Positions 6,460 to 12,873 of a DNA stretch of 64,000 bases are shown here, piece after piece (positions within the stretch are counted from its first letter, which is position 1; each line of letters begins with the position of its first letter). The position numbers were made by a program, and so were the translations under genes. This DNA comes from Psychrobacter sp. NG254. GTDB taxonomy: Bacteria > Pseudomonadota > Gammaproteobacteria > Pseudomonadales > Moraxellaceae. The notes beneath the pieces are model-generated. The model saw only the letters and a program-made list of their open reading frames with translations, had not been told where the DNA came from and did no database searches. The stretch spans positions 310,001 through 374,000 of the forward strand of contig NZ_JADHDA010000003.1 in NCBI RefSeq assembly GCF_015277735.1, given 5' to 3'.

Positions 6460-9357
6460 TTACAGATAGTTTTCGATACTTGGGCAAGAGCACATTAGAT
6501 TCTTATCACCGTACGCATCATCGACACGTGCCACGCTTGGCCAGAACTTGTTTGCACGGATATAAGGCAGTGGGAATGCAGCCGTATCACGGCTGTACGG
6601 ATGCGCCCATTCGCTACTAGTGATCATAGCAGCCGTATGTGGCGCATTGACCAATGGATTGTCTTCTAGCGTCCAACCATTCTCGCCAGCTTTTGCTTTC
6701 ATCGCTTCTGCTTTGATAGACTTTAGCGCACTGATAAAGCGATCCAACTCTTCTTTTGACTCAGACTCTGTTGGCTCAATCATAAGCGTACCAGCAACTG
6801 GGAAACTCATAGTTGGTGAATGGAAACCATAATCCATCAAGCGCTTGGCGATATCGCTTTCACTGATGCCAGTCTCTTCTTTTAGTGGACGAATATCGAT
6901 GATACATTCGTGAGCCACACGGCCGTTTTTGCCAGCATATAGGACAGGGTAATGGCCTTTTAACTCAGCAGCGACGTAGTTGGCGTTCAATAATGCCAAT
7001 TCAGTGGCTTTTAATAGACCATCGCGGCCCATCATAGCAATGTACATCCATGAGATAGGCAAAATGCTCGCTGAGCCATAAGGTGCTGCTGATACGGCTG
7101 AGCAGTCTTTTTGTGCATTATGCACAGGGCTTAGCGTATGGTTGGCCATAAATGGTGCCAAATGCGCCTTCATGCCGATAGGACCCATACCTGGGCCACC
7201 GCCGCCATGCGGAATACAGAAAGTCTTGTGCAAGTTCATGTGAAGTACATCAGCGCCAACGTCTGCAGGCTGCATCATGCCTACCTGAGCGTTCATGTTC
7301 GCGCCGTCCATATAGACCTGACCACCATGCTTGTGGGTCAAATCACAGATATGACGGATGCCTTCTTCAAACACGCCATGCGTCGATGGATAGGTAATCA
7401 TCAAAGCACCCAAACGCTCGCTGTGCTCTTCACATTTAGCGGTCAAATCATCGATATCTACGTTGCCGTTTTCATCGGTTTTGACCACGACTACTTTCAT
7501 GCCCATCATCATGGCAGTCGCTGGGTTAGTACCATGCGCCGACATTGGAATCAAGCAAACATCACGATCGGTCTCACCCAATGACTCATGATAGCGACGG
7601 ATGGCAAGCAGACCAGCATACTCACCAGAAGCACCAGAGTTTGGCTGCATAGACACATCATCGAAACCAGTAATGGCTTTGAGTTGGTCTTGTAAGCTAT
7701 CAATCATGGCGATATAACCGGTGACCTGATCACGCGGTGCAAAAGGATGCACATTGGCGAATTCAGGCCAAGTGATGGGTAGCATCTCACTGGTGGCGTT
7801 GAGCTTCATGGTGCAGCTGCCCAGTGAAATCATGCTGCGGTTCATCGCTAGATCTTTGTCTTCAAGCGACTTTAGATAGCGCAGCATCTCGTGCTCGGTG
7901 TGATGCGAGTTGAATACAGGATGGCTCAAAATATCGTCAGTACGCAAATGCGCGCTATCGAGTGAGATACGAGCGGTTTCAGGCAAGTCATGTGACTTAT
8001 TGACGAACAATTGAGTCAAGGTGTTGAAGTCTTGCTGATCACTGGTTTCACTAAAAGCGACGCTCAATTTGGTTTCGCTTATACGCCACAAGTTGTAGCC
8101 AACATTGTCTGCATTTTTGAAGATTTGTGTGGCAAGCTTTTCTGAACCACAATCAACCACAACTGTATCAAAGAATTGATCGTGTACCACATTCAAGCTG
8201 CTGTCATTGGCTGCGGTGATGGCATCAGCAAAGGCAGTTGCAAAGGCATGGATACGAGTCGCGATACGTTTGACACCGCTTGGGCCATGGTATACAGCGT
8301 ACATACCAGCGAGGTTCGCTAGCAATACCTGTGACGTACAGATGTTTGAGTTGGCTTTTTCGCGGCGGATATGCTGCTCACGAGTTTGTAGTGCCATACG
8401 TAGGGCAGTATTGCCTTGCGAGTCTTTTGACACACCAATGATACGACCAGGTGCTGAGCGTTTGGCTTTGTCAGAGAACGCAAAGTAGGCGGCATGTGGA
8501 CCACCAAAGCCCATTGGGATACCGAAACGCTGCGTACTACCTAGCGCCACATCGGCACCCATATCGGCTGGTGATTTCAATAGCACCAAGCTCATGATAT
8601 CACTGACAACGCTCACGTAGGTTTTGTTTGCTTTTACGGCAGCGATAACGTCTGTTAAATCTTTAACATCGCCTTCTGCGCCGACATACTGAAACAGCGC
8701 ACCGAAATAGTCACCAGATTTGGCGGTTTCAAAATCACCAACGATGACTTCCCAACCAAAGTATTTGGCACGAGTATTGATAACATCTAGCGTCTGCGGA
8801 TAGACACGCTCATCAACGAAATACTGCGTTGATTTGCTTTTGCTCACACGCTTTGACATCGCCATGGCTTCTGCCGCTGCCGTGGCTTCGTCAAGTAGTG
8901 ACGCACCAGCCAACTCAAGACCAGTCAGGTCGATACAGACTTGTTGGAAGTTCAGCAATGCTTCTAGACGACCTTGCGCGATTTCAGCTTGATAAGGCGT
9001 ATAAGCGGTATACCAGCCTGGATTTTCAAGGACGTTGCGCTGAATGACAGCAGGCATACGCACAGGCGAGTAGCCTTGACCGATATAGCTTTTGTTAACA
9101 GTGATGTCGTCTGCCATCGTACGCAGTTTGGCAAGTGCTGCATGCTCACTCATTGCCAATGGCAAATCCAATTCTTTGTGCAAACGTACTGGCTCAGGTA
9201 CCGTGTCATTGATAAAGCTTTGCATGTCCTTATAACCAACGGCACTGAGTAGGTCAGCTTGCTTGGTGTCATTTGAACCTAAATGGCGATAGACAAATTC
9301 AGCTTCGTTGAACAAGCCTTGAAAGGTATCAAACGATGGGTTTTGAGAGATAGTCAT
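6460..9357 (-). CDS. gcvP: Glycine dehydrogenase (decarboxylating), P protein
   Basis: The P protein of the glycine cleavage system, 965 residues, a normal length for the fused homodimeric form. It decarboxylates glycine with PLP and passes the aminomethyl group to lipoylated GcvH. The N-terminal half begins with FVYRHLGSND and contains GQGYSPVRMPAVIQRNVLENPGWYTAYTPYQAEI-type wording. The C-terminal half holds SLGSCTMKLN, QPNSGASGEYAGL, SAHGTNPATA and the PLP lysine in HMNLHKTFCIPHGGGGPG. AAGGATTGTC precedes the ATG at 9357. It is the last gene of the gcv group and is separated from gcvTH by a nitroreductase gene. Confidence 0.97.
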   Translation of the reverse strand: MTISQNPSFDTFQGLFNEAEFVYRHLGSNDTKQADLLSAVGYKDMQSFINDTVPEPVRLHKELDLPLAMSEHAALAKLRTMADDITVNKSYIGQGYSPVRMPAVIQRNVLENPGWYTAYTPYQAEIAQGRLEALLNFQQVCIDLTGLELAGASLLDEATAAAEAMAMSKRVSKSKSTQYFVDERVYPQTLDVINTRAKYFGWEVIVGDFETAKSGDYFGALFQYVGAEGDVKDLTDVIAAVKANKTYVSVVSDIMSLVLLKSPADMGADVALGSTQRFGIPMGFGGPHAAYFAFSDKAKRSAPGRIIGVSKDSQGNTALRMALQTREQHIRREKANSNICTSQVLLANLAGMYAVYHGPSGVKRIATRIHAFATAFADAITAANDSSLNVVHDQFFDTVVVDCGSEKLATQIFKNADNVGYNLWRISETKLSVAFSETSDQQDFNTLTQLFVNKSHDLPETARISLDSAHLRTDDILSHPVFNSHHTEHEMLRYLKSLEDKDLAMNRSMISLGSCTMKLNATSEMLPITWPEFANVHPFAPRDQVTGYIAMIDSLQDQLKAITGFDDVSMQPNSGASGEYAGLLAIRRYHESLGETDRDVCLIPMSAHGTNPATAMMMGMKVVVVKTDENGNVDIDDLTAKCEEHSERLGALMITYPSTHGVFEEGIRHICDLTHKHGGQVYMDGANMNAQVGMMQPADVGADVLHMNLHKTFCIPHGGGGPGMGPIGMKAHLAPFMANHTLSPVHNAQKDCSAVSAAPYGSASILPISWMYIAMMGRDGLLKATELALLNANYVAAELKGHYPVLYAGKNGRVAHECIIDIRPLKEETGISESDIAKRLMDYGFHSPTMSFPVAGTLMIEPTESESKEELDRFISALKSIKAEAMKAKAGENGWTLEDNPLVNAPHTAAMITSSEWAHPYSRDTAAFPLPYIRANKFWPSVARVDDAYGDKNLMCSCPSIENYL

Positions 9358-9516: not shown

Positions 9517-10275
9517 TTATACGTAATGTACAAACTGTGTCTGATCAAAGCGGAATTGGCTGTTATAAACACCGTTATCAGCACGTTCGCCAGCACCAAT
9601 CATCATAATGATATGTTGATCGCTGCCTAACTTTAGCAATCGCTTCATGGCAGGCTCATCGAAGCCGCCCATGGCACAGCTGTCAAAACCATGAGCACGT
9701 AGTGCTAGCATCAGGTTTTCGGCGGCAAGCGAGGTGTTATTGGTTGCCCAGTTTTTGGTATCTTCAAAGGTATAGTAAGGCGATTTTATTGGGCCTTTTA
9801 CCCGTCTAACCACTTGCGTCGCGCCCCATTTTGCGGCCGAAACCACATTGGCCGGTCCTCGCAAAAAGTCCATCGTGACGACTTTGGTGTAGTAGTCTTT
9901 CACTTTCTTTGGCACTGGCTGGTCAGGGTATTCGCGCAGTACTTGCTGGGCGTGATCTTGCCAAACATCGGTACGAGCAACGATTGCGATTAAGCGTGCT
10001 GCTGTTTTTGCAGCGTTTTGATTCATGCAGTTTTTGATGGCACGTTTGCGATTGTCAGCATCATCGATAACATAAAACTCCCACGGCTGTAGGTTGCTAG
10101 AGTTCGGCGCTAGCATAGCCAAACGCAGACAGTCTGCTAGCACATCGTCAGGTATTGGCGTATCAGTGAAGCGGCGTACTGAGCGGCGCGACTCTACAAT
10201 ATCGCGAAACGCTTGAAGCTGCGGCGTATGAGTGGGCGTGGCAACGCTGTCTGTATTATCGGTGTTGGTGGTCAT
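9517..10275 (-). CDS. Nitroreductase-family FMN oxidoreductase
   Basis: The protein matches the nitroreductase fold: ESRRSVRRFTDTPIPDDV (FMN phosphate-binding Arg cluster), MLAPNSSNLQPWEFYVID, and a C-terminal DSCAMGGFDEPAMKRLL block. Such enzymes reduce nitro or quinone substrates, or other unsaturated bonds, with NAD(P)H and FMN. I chose the ATG at 10275 because GGAT lies 8 bases upstream and the preceding residues are Asn/Thr-rich filler; the same frame continues upstream to a GTG at 10332. It sits between gcvH and gcvP on the same strand, an unusual place, with no obvious role in glycine cleavage. Confidence 0.85.
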   Translation of the reverse strand: MTTNTDNTDSVATPTHTPQLQAFRDIVESRRSVRRFTDTPIPDDVLADCLRLAMLAPNSSNLQPWEFYVIDDADNRKRAIKNCMNQNAAKTAARLIAIVARTDVWQDHAQQVLREYPDQPVPKKVKDYYTKVVTMDFLRGPANVVSAAKWGATQVVRRVKGPIKSPYYTFEDTKNWATNNTSLAAENLMLALRAHGFDSCAMGGFDEPAMKRLLKLGSDQHIIMMIGAGERADNGVYNSQFRFDQTQFVHYV

Positions 10276-10332
10276 ATTGGGATCCATGCTGGGAGTTGGG
10301 TTATCGGTATGAGATCGTGTTTTCAGATTCAC

Positions 10333-10719: not shown

Positions 10720-11100
10720 TTATAGGTCGCTTTCGTACTCATCAGCTGTCAACAGTGCTTCGTAGTCAGCGATGTTGTCAGGCTTCATTCTAAAGAACCA
10801 ACCTTCGCCGTATGGGTCAGAGTTGATGATTTCAGGATCGTCTTCTAGGCCTTCATTGATAGCAACCACTTCACCTGAGATCGGTGCATAAACGTCAGAA
10901 GCCGCTTTTACTGATTCAACAACAGAGATTTCGTCATCGACAGCGATGATGTCGCCCACATCTGGCAATTCAACGAATACCACATCACCCAATAGGTCTT
11001 GAGCATGGTCTGTGATACCAACAGTGATCGTACCGTCGTCTTCTAAGCGTAACCACTCGTGGCTGGCAATATATTTTAGATCTGCTGGGATGTTGCTCAT
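10720..11100 (-). CDS. gcvH: Glycine cleavage system H protein
   Basis: A small lipoyl carrier of 126 residues, normal for the family. It shuttles the aminomethyl group between GcvP, GcvT and the lipoamide dehydrogenase. The lipoyl-lysine is in [19 protein letters not shown], and the N-terminal [30 protein letters not shown]-type block and EGWFFRMK are present. AGGAGAGAG precedes the ATG at 11100. It lies 69 bases downstream of gcvT and is expected to be co-transcribed with it under the glycine riboswitch. Confidence 0.97.
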
Positions 11101-11169: not shown

Positions 11170-12363
11170 CTACGAGTCAAACTGCTGTTTGCCATTACGG
11201 ACAAAAGGCAGCTTAAGTACGCGTACGTCAACGAATTTACCTTTGCCGCGTAGATCGACCTGTACATTATCATCGTCTGATAAGCTGGCAGGAACACGGG
11301 CAATCGCGATTGAGTTTTTTAGGCTAGGAGAGAATGTACCACTGGTGATAATGCCAGTTTGTTCATTGTCTGTGCCTTGATTGATGGTGACCGTCATGCC
11401 TTCACGTAACACGCCGCGTGTCGTCAATAGCAGACCCACTTGCTTCATAGCCGTGTTGTCATCTTTTGACTGCTTACGTTTGCTGACTAGGGCTTCGCGG
11501 CCGACAAACTCGCGCTCGTCTTTAAGTGCAAGCGTCCAGCCCATGTTGCACTCATAAGGACTGATGGTTTCGTCCATGTCATGACCATACAGGTTCATAC
11601 CCGCTTCCATACGCAAGGTATCACGTGCGCCAAGACCAGCAGGTTTGATGCCATTCTCTTTTAATTGCTCAAAGAAAGCAGGCGCATCATCGGCATGCAT
11701 AATGACTTCGACACCATCTTCACCAGTATAACCAGTACGAGCCACGAACCAATCAGTGCCTTCGATATCGGTCAAGTCAGCCCCAACGAAAGGCTTAAGT
11801 GCTGCCAAGGTGTCGGCCCAGCTTGGTTTGGCTTGAGCCAGTTTTGCAATAGCATTTGGACCTTGCACGGCAAGCATAGCAAGCTCAGGACGCTCGGTAA
11901 TCTCAATATCAAAGCCTTCAGCGACTTTGTTAAACTGTGTTAAGTCTTTATCACGAGTGGCTGCGTTAGAGACGATGCGGTATTCGGTTTCATCAGCATT
12001 GGTCAGATATACGATCAAATCATCGATGACACCGCCTTGCTCATTGAGCATACCAGAGTACAGTGCTTTACCAGGTGTGGTGAGTTTGTTGACATCGTTG
12101 GCGAGCAGTTTCTGTAGCCATGCTTTGGTATCAGCGCCTTTGATATCGGTCACAACCATATGTGAGACATCAAACATACCCGCATCTGTGCGTACGGCTT
12201 CGTGCTCTTCGATTTGTGAGCCGTAATGAATCGGCAATTCCCAACCAGAGAAGTCGACCAGCTTGCCCTCACTATCAATGTGAGACTGGTAAAAAGGGGT
12301 GCGCTGAGGGGCTTGGCTTTGCTCGTTTTGAGAAGTGATGTCTTGAGAATGGGTATCAGTCAT
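11170..12363 (-). CDS. gcvT: Aminomethyltransferase, glycine cleavage T protein
   Basis: The T protein transfers the C1 unit from aminomethyl-GcvH to tetrahydrofolate and releases ammonia. It has 397 residues, slightly longer than usual because of a roughly 20-residue Gln/Ser-rich N-terminal extension before [23 protein letters not shown]. Family marks are [47 protein letters not shown] and, at the end, [28 protein letters not shown] precedes the ATG at 12363. It is the first gene of the gcv group, directly downstream of the riboswitch leader. Confidence 0.97.
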
Positions 12364-12501
12364 AACAAATCCTTATGTGTACATCAGTGGTACTCGGTAG
12401 AGTAGGCCTTGATGCGCAACGTAAAAGTAGCGAGAAGCAATATTGCAAGGTGCAAATATTACATCAAAGGGTGACACAGAAAACAAAGATGAAGACATGA
12501 G

Positions 12502-12539: not shown

Positions 12540-12672
12540 ATCTGTCCTGTGACCTGAGATTTTCAACACGAATCATCATTAATGGGCAGTTGTATGAGCC
12601 CTACAGCTGATGATAGCGTATTTTCTCCCCTTCGGTGGGTAAGACGTCGTCCGTGCTTACCACTCTCCAGAT
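12540..12672 (-). ncRNA. Glycine riboswitch, aptamer II
   Basis: Read on the minus strand it shows GGAGAGTGG, then CACCGAAGGGGAGAAA, then CTCAGGTCACAGGACAG. These are the conserved strings of the glycine aptamer, in the normal order, closed by ATCTG/CAGAT. It lies upstream of gcvT and is expected to bind glycine and raise gcv expression. Confidence 0.9.
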
Positions 12673-12738
12673 TTGTTATGCCTTATGTTTGAAGATGTAG
12701 TGCGCTATAGGCATCATACGACCAAACAAAAATGACAT

Positions 12739-12873
12739 GCGTTTTTCAGTCCTTTTACCTGAGCGATTGGCAGGGTGGATGCGCCTTCGGTGGCTTGTAG
12801 CAATTGATGTTTTTGTATGACCAATGCGGTTTAATACAAAATCTATGCTTACAAACGCTCTCCTGAAAAACGC
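12739..12873 (-). ncRNA. Glycine riboswitch, aptamer I
   Basis: The minus strand reads CAGGAGAGCG, then GCCACCGAAGGCGCA, then CTCAGGTAAAAGGACTG. The P1 stem is an 11-bp perfect pairing (GCGTTTTTCAG with CTGAAAAACGC). It precedes aptamer II by 66 bases, giving the tandem architecture known for this riboswitch class. Confidence 0.9.

Follow-up and report, generated by a model that had tools for sequence, protein, structure and literature searches.

The window analysed here, a 64,000-nucleotide (nt) stretch of Psychrobacter sp. NG254 DNA (contig NZ_JADHDA010000003.1, positions 310,001 to 374,000 of the forward strand), carries on its minus strand an element that the evidence supports as a tandem glycine riboswitch ahead of gcvT, with glycine binding predicted. 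We propose that this element is a glycine ON switch for the glycine-cleavage operon, in which the two strands of the P1 helix of the second aptamer, P1(II), run two OFF locks, a terminator and a strand that sequesters the ribosome-binding site (RBS), hereafter the anti-RBS, and we give this reading a probability of slightly less than 0.6. The riboswitch class itself (glycine, RF00504) is already known, and it is the two-lock arrangement that goes further. The computed basis of the proposal consists of aptamer matches, complementarity, conservation and alternative folds, from which we infer the glycine response, the ON direction, termination, translational repression and the P5 contact described below.

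According to the proposed mechanism, P1(II) would be open when glycine is absent. Its 3' strand (AGAU) and the AGGGC that follows would then make up the 5' arm of a terminator, and most transcripts would end at the U tract; the 5' strand (AUCU), together with the preceding linker sequence CAUAACAA, would pair over 12 base pairs (bp) with the RBS and AUG of gcvT, leaving the read-through transcripts untranslated. Glycine would close P1(II) and thereby withdraw both strands from both OFF structures. In the ON state, a hairpin of the interaptamer linker, PL, would take up part of the anti-RBS, and P5, formed between CCCU of aptamer I and AGGG after aptamer II, would take up part of the terminator arm. 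On the most specific form of the proposal our belief and our doubt are about equal: that a single short helix serves both locks, its 3' strand feeding the terminator and its 5' strand plus linker reaching the RBS and start codon about 300 nt downstream, with the linker as part of the platform and PL as spacer and release element.

The identity of the element is clear from an Rfam covariance-model search, which places aptamer I at 12875-12737 (54.3 bits, E 1.1e-9) and aptamer II at 12680-12532 (43.5 bits, E 8.1e-7), both on the minus strand and above the RF00504 gathering score of 32, in line with one expression platform; these are the sole RF00504 matches in the whole genome at E <= 0.001. The next gene on the 3' side is gcvT (11170-12363, minus strand), which encodes an aminomethyltransferase of 397 amino acids with the Pfam domains GCV_T (PF01571, 273.4 bits) and GCV_T_C (PF08669, 57.3 bits). 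A preliminary description of the window, made from the sequence alone, had proposed a tandem glycine riboswitch in front of gcvT and had foreseen a double covariance-model match on the minus strand, and both scores and both domains bear it out. Its details also hold: the conserved strings GGAGAG, CCGAAGG, CTCAGG and AGGAC occur in this order in both aptamers; the P1 helix of aptamer I, P1(I), is a perfect 11-bp helix (12873-12863 with 12749-12739, all Watson-Crick, counting a top G-C pair that is part of the Rfam model); 66 nt (12738-12673) separate the two P1 helices; and 176 nt lie between the last base of P1(II) at 12540 and the gcvT ATG at 12363. P1(II) itself has 5 bp (12672-12668 with 12544-12540). 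Both aptamers contain long insertions, in P2 of aptamer I (about 12857-12790) and in the extended P3b of aptamer II (about 12640-12560), whose sequence and length vary widely across the genus. The best relatives of the window's GcvT in named genomes are from Psychrobacter, and 104 of 105 Psychrobacter genomes have an RF00504 match; in the remaining one, G074, a second search for it was also empty.

The evidence for the anti-RBS starts from a 12-nt complementarity. RNAalifold applied to the platform alone, with 30 of the 53 non-redundant Psychrobacter leaders, left the RBS only weakly paired with other segments, and the inspection to which this led revealed a complement in the linker. The proposed anti-RBS, CAUAACAAAUCU, consists of the 3' end of the linker and the 5' strand of P1(II), the final AUCU (12680-12669, minus strand), and is complementary to GGAUUUGUUAUG (12372-12361), which covers part of the Shine-Dalgarno (SD) sequence, the spacer and the AUG of gcvT. 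The sequence GGATTTGTTATG has a single occurrence in the 3.33-Mb genome, at gcvT. When the pairing is read in the same fixed register in 83 distinct Psychrobacter leaders, all 12 positions pair in 65 of them, 11 in nine, 10 in three and 6-7 in six, and sliding the register by 1-4 positions lowers the mean from 11.63 to 3.8-6.1. Six loci are left out of these counts, two in which no start was found (L052, L089) and four in which no aptamer II was found (L078, L118, L119, L131). The six distinct leaders of the sister genus g7 pair at 11 positions in two cases, 10 in two, 9 in one and 5 in one, and 18 outgroup leaders (five from Neisseriaceae, four from g10, three from g11, one from g14, four from g15 and one, L076, from a metagenome-assembled genome named Moraxella) pair at 2-7. 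Within the leader, the 12-mer has its best partner in the RBS in 76/83 cases. The start sites of gcvH provide an internal comparison: in the same 71 loci they pair at 5-9 of the 12 positions and come in 23 variants, versus 7 at gcvT, and the spacer between SD and AUG is kept far more strictly at gcvT than at gcvH. On the GcvT tree, from which three of 49 rows (L065, L163, L194) were dropped, two positions show compensation: one changes from A-U to G-C between two sister clades with good support, the other from C-G to U-A in one g7 lineage.

The second lock is a terminator-like hairpin directly after aptamer II (12543-12479, minus strand), whose stem (12543-12487, with one bulged C) leads into the U tract UUGUUUUC (12486-12479). 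The 5' arm of the hairpin, AGAUAGGGC, combines the 3' strand of P1(II) with the G tract and pairs with GUCUUCAUCU, enclosing a further hairpin at 12528-12502. The preliminary description had recognised this inner hairpin and noted that it lacks a T tract, which is correct for the inner part but not for the longer stem to which it belongs; its guess that the platform acts on translation or by antitermination was on the right track, as the data point to both transcription and translation, but it saw the terminator-like hairpin only in part and missed the anti-RBS in the linker. The stem has a predicted energy of -20.9 kcal/mol (z score -3.45), and 2 of 200 shuffled sequences are as stable. A comparable stem is present in 82 of the 83 leaders, and in 77 of these 83 at least five of the next eight nt are U, a generous count since the script picked the best tract; obvious T6-T8 terminators occupy the same place in several deep Psychrobacter leaders. 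For a transcript ending at the U tract, the ON core (-109.8 kcal/mol) and the terminator fold (-112.2 kcal/mol) differ by 2.4 kcal/mol, a gap small enough for the ligand to tip the balance; the energy model includes neither the ligand nor tertiary contacts. A simple scan finds no terminator between the two aptamers, but it also misses the bulged one downstream, so its silence there counts for little. Between the terminator and the RBS lies a second hairpin (12462-12426) followed by CUUCUCGCUACU, a stretch common to many leaders with small changes, which is possibly a site for Rho or a protein. An upstream open reading frame was also considered (ATG at 12499, about 41 codons by eye, with a TAA that overlaps the SD sequence); L003 and L004 have ACG in place of the ATG that L010 keeps, and we take it as a chance occurrence.

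Consistent with the proposed OFF state, when the window's leader is folded without constraints the minimum-energy structure holds the full anti-RBS duplex and the terminator stem together. Among the 81 of the 83 leaders that were folded, at least eight of the 12 anti-RBS pairs are predicted in 67, the hairpin that uses the 3' strand of P1(II) in 77 and both in 65; P1(II) is absent from all 81, as expected without ligand. The fold of the window also contains a hairpin just 5' of the SD sequence (12415-12381), which several relatives seem, by eye, to retain with different sequences. Forcing P1(II) opens the start only in part, raising the mean predicted openness of the AUG from 0.10 to 0.23, and that of the nine nt before it from 0.10 to 0.35 (80 leaders).

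In the case of the linker (12738-12673), both the linker fold and RNAalifold predict the hairpin PL, AUGUC at 12738-12734 with GGCAU at 12682-12678, immediately after P1(I); applied to 33 of the 53 non-redundant linkers, RNAalifold yields this helix alone, with five pairs. One of the pairs shows a two-sided change, one-sided changes number 12 at one pair, and a swap test of PL was uninformative (12.04 vs 11.86, standard deviation 0.30, 50 swaps). PL sits where other tandem riboswitches have the helix P0, with a 5' strand supplied by the linker itself. Between PL and P1(II) lies AACAA, unpaired in the ON model, four positions of which have a conservation of 0.99-1.0 and the remaining one 0.89; the 28 positions preceding the 12-mer range from 0.34 to 0.92. 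Including the P1 strands, the linker measures 47 to 182 nt in the non-redundant Psychrobacter leaders. In a class-wide sample of 151 genomes, of which six with a single match cannot count, the gap between the two Rfam matches has a median of -2 nt over 55 tandem pairs, and that of the window, which is among them, is the second largest (56 nt).

At its 5' side, the riboswitch appears to begin almost without a leader strand. A predicted sigma-70-type promoter (12906-12878, minus strand) consists of TTGTAA (12906-12901), a 17-nt spacer and CATAAT (12883-12878), and would place the transcription start at the 5' edge of P1(I). Its position is well kept: a TTGTAA-like box lies 17 nt before CATAAT in 71 of the 72 parsed Psychrobacter leaders, and the distance from the end of CATAAT to GGAGAG is 14 nt in 70 and 15 nt in two of them. 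A promoter scan of the window alone was not above chance (3 found vs 2.1 expected). When its top G-C pair is left aside, P1(I) runs for at least seven pairs without a break in 41 of the 53 non-redundant leaders; pairs 5 and 6 show two-sided changes in three leaders each, and the other 12 leaders have a mismatch within the first six pairs. A test for a leader-linker kink-turn or P0 in which leaders and linkers were swapped was uninformative, the strands being conserved (13 loci from the class and 53 Psychrobacter leaders).

Aptamer I seems to be tied to the platform by its CCCU, which is complementary to AGGG or GGGG after aptamer II in 58/58 leaders (53 from Psychrobacter and five from Neisseriaceae); the two motifs are nearly invariant, hence there is no covariation. 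In the accounts available, P5, a pairing between a C tract in P3b and the G tract that follows aptamer II, is reported in 66% of aminomethyltransferase types, and our reading is that the P3b of aptamer I is the partner meant. The P3b of aptamer II was also considered; the window has GCCC there and many relatives do not, so we took the CCCU of aptamer I. The CCCU/AGGG complementarity resembles the pseudoknot described for gcvT-type switches in the part of the Neisseria gonorrhoeae study available (PMC13104608).

Several observations weigh against the two-lock reading. The complementarity alone is only modestly unlikely, since equally good pairing arises in 21 of 1000 shuffled leaders, and the window's 98 uncurated SD-like starts of open reading frames include one other that pairs at 11/12 and three that pair at 10/12. 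Covariation is weak, with cognate and swapped haplotypes differing at p 0.087 (all 18) or 0.032 (the 11 with at least 9/12), seven leaders (L033, L036, L046, L060, L069, L092 and L112) have uncompensated mismatches, and the pairing is missing from six Psychrobacter leaders, which belong to three deep lineages. With regard to the terminator, a simple scan of the window finds none, and the U tract is broken by a G. The models also fail to show a clean release of the start site: when P1(II) alone is forced, the window's start is not freed, with the anti-RBS pairs keeping a mean probability of 0.63, and among the 80 leaders the site opens by >0.3 in only 22 and closes by >0.1 in five. If PL and P1(I) are constrained as well, it is the freed terminator arm that pairs with the window's SD, and at full length the ON core (-140.2 kcal/mol) is 18.8 kcal/mol above the minimum (-159.0 kcal/mol), so that release would need kinetics, or the ligand and tertiary contacts. 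In models of this kind, equilibrium folding without glycine cannot decide start-site release.

A further question is whether one lock would suffice. An ON switch that acts on transcription alone, as in Bacillus subtilis, with the linker end and the RBS conserved separately (for P1(II) or tertiary folding and for initiation, respectively) and the complementarity incidental, is in our opinion unlikely, but it has a real claim to attention. It would fit the near-universal stem, the 2% of shuffles that match the linker-RBS complementarity and the six leaders that do without the pairing, five of which (L073-L075, L129 = L083, and L091) show by eye a stem with a long T tract. However, it would leave the strict conservation of the unpaired AACAA without a role, as well as the greater conservation of the SD-AUG spacer at gcvT than at gcvH, the compensations from A-U to G-C and from C-G to U-A, and a pairing that reaches over the AUG. 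Control of translation only, with a hairpin after aptamer II that does not terminate and the anti-RBS as the entire expression platform, is less probable still. The interrupted U tract of the window's clade, the leaders with fewer than five U in the eight nt after the stem (L051, L065, L066, L069 and L088) and the empty terminator scan are in its favour, as is the statement, in the parts available of two publications, that proteobacterial riboswitches act mostly on translation (PMC6944388, PMC12452182). On the other hand, the U-rich tract after the stem in 77 leaders, even though the best tract was chosen by the script, the T6-T8 terminators of deep Psychrobacter lineages and the z score of the stem argue for termination.

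A different objection concerns the tandem itself: with 66 nt between them and no apparent kink-turn of leader and linker, the two aptamers may not form one unit, and aptamer II alone would control gcvT with aptamer I as a relic. The unusually large gap between the matches and the mismatches in P1(I) of 12 leaders would agree with this, and so would the report that the kink-turn occurs in >90% of tandems and is needed in B. subtilis (PMC5666159, as far as that source was available). We nevertheless consider it very improbable. Aptamer I outscores aptamer II, its P1 helix is mostly unbroken and has two-sided changes, PL shortens the effective linker, and the CCCU/AGGG complementarity joins aptamer I to the platform in every leader compared; moreover, the N. 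gonorrhoeae switch lacks the kink-turn, yet mutating either aptamer alters GcvT expression, according to the available part of that report (PMC13104608). The two-lock reading is the one that we prefer.

The operon downstream of the riboswitch has the order gcvT-gcvH-nitroreductase-gcvP according to Pfam, with the three gcv genes on the minus strand: gcvH at 10720-11100 (PF01597, 156.5 bits), the nitroreductase-family gene between gcvH and gcvP at 9517-10332, and gcvP at 6460-9357 (PF02347, 585.8 bits). Other lineages seem to show different arrangements. In g11 and g15, two other genera of the family (L113-L118, L131 and L132), the tandem riboswitch precedes, by eye, the start of a gene resembling a flavin adenine dinucleotide (FAD) oxidoreductase rather than gcvT, and the only one of these starts that was scanned, that of L115, matches the Pfam family DAO. 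Two genomes of g15, which as a guess we take to be probably Acinetobacter, have four aptamer matches (G229 and G252). In L120, from g10, AUGGGGUG right after P1(II) is by eye complementary to CACCCCAU at the gcvT start; in this lineage the start may be sequestered by the opposite strand of the junction. A role of the P1(II) 5' strand as anti-SD across the Gammaproteobacteria was rejected: although some pairs look good individually (L139, L152), cognate pairs were no better than swapped ones (-6.98 vs -7.08, p 0.57; 12 of 30 class loci parsed), and hence we do not claim the mechanism beyond Psychrobacter and part of g7.

If the two-lock arrangement is true across most of the genus, the interaptamer linker would be a start-codon-sequestering strand, and the tandem layout would gain a role that is independent of binding cooperativity. 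The system would also provide a clean test case for coupled control of transcription and translation, with two strands of one helix that can be mutated separately. It should be noted that a survey requiring less than about 20 nt between tandem-adjacent aptamers, as described in the available part of its report (PMC12452182), might not class these elements as tandem glycine riboswitches.

In the literature covered, which is a partial check, we found no publication naming the glycine riboswitch and Psychrobacter together, while for Moraxella a review turned up. There, tandem glycine riboswitches are described with a linker that aids folding (kink-turn, P0), and no anti-RBS located in it is mentioned. 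The leader-linker kink-turn is reported in >90% of them, not in all, in the part available of the B. subtilis study (PMC5666159). According to the same source, the B. subtilis gcvT riboswitch has in common with the switch proposed here the two aptamers, the gcvT operon, the ON logic (predicted here) and a terminator stem (putative here) beside aptamer II, but its function depends on a leader-linker kink-turn and P0, and no anti-RBS is described. In the window, in contrast, the predicted promoter abuts P1(I), a helix of 11 bp, and the 66-nt linker forms a predicted hairpin. The N. gonorrhoeae gcvT riboswitch, in the available portion of its description (PMC13104608), is similar to the switch proposed here in having no apparent kink-turn or P0, an expanded P3 loop in aptamer II, ON logic and an RBS that is sequestered when OFF; thus, a leaderless front end alone would not be new. 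However, the strand that sequesters its RBS belongs to aptamer II and takes in part of the binding pocket, and a Rho-independent terminator is not predicted for it, whereas the Psychrobacter strand would consist of the linker and the 5' strand of P1(II), would extend over the AUG and would be accompanied by a terminator-like hairpin. Finally, the possibility that a single riboswitch attenuates transcription as well as translation is shared with the dual platforms, a recognised class, of Barrick and Breaker (2007; PMC2258182), in which, in the part of that paper available, the RBS lies inside the terminator. In the window's leader, 107 nt separate the U tract from the RBS, and the two proposed locks would be separate structures drawn from opposite strands of one aptamer helix.
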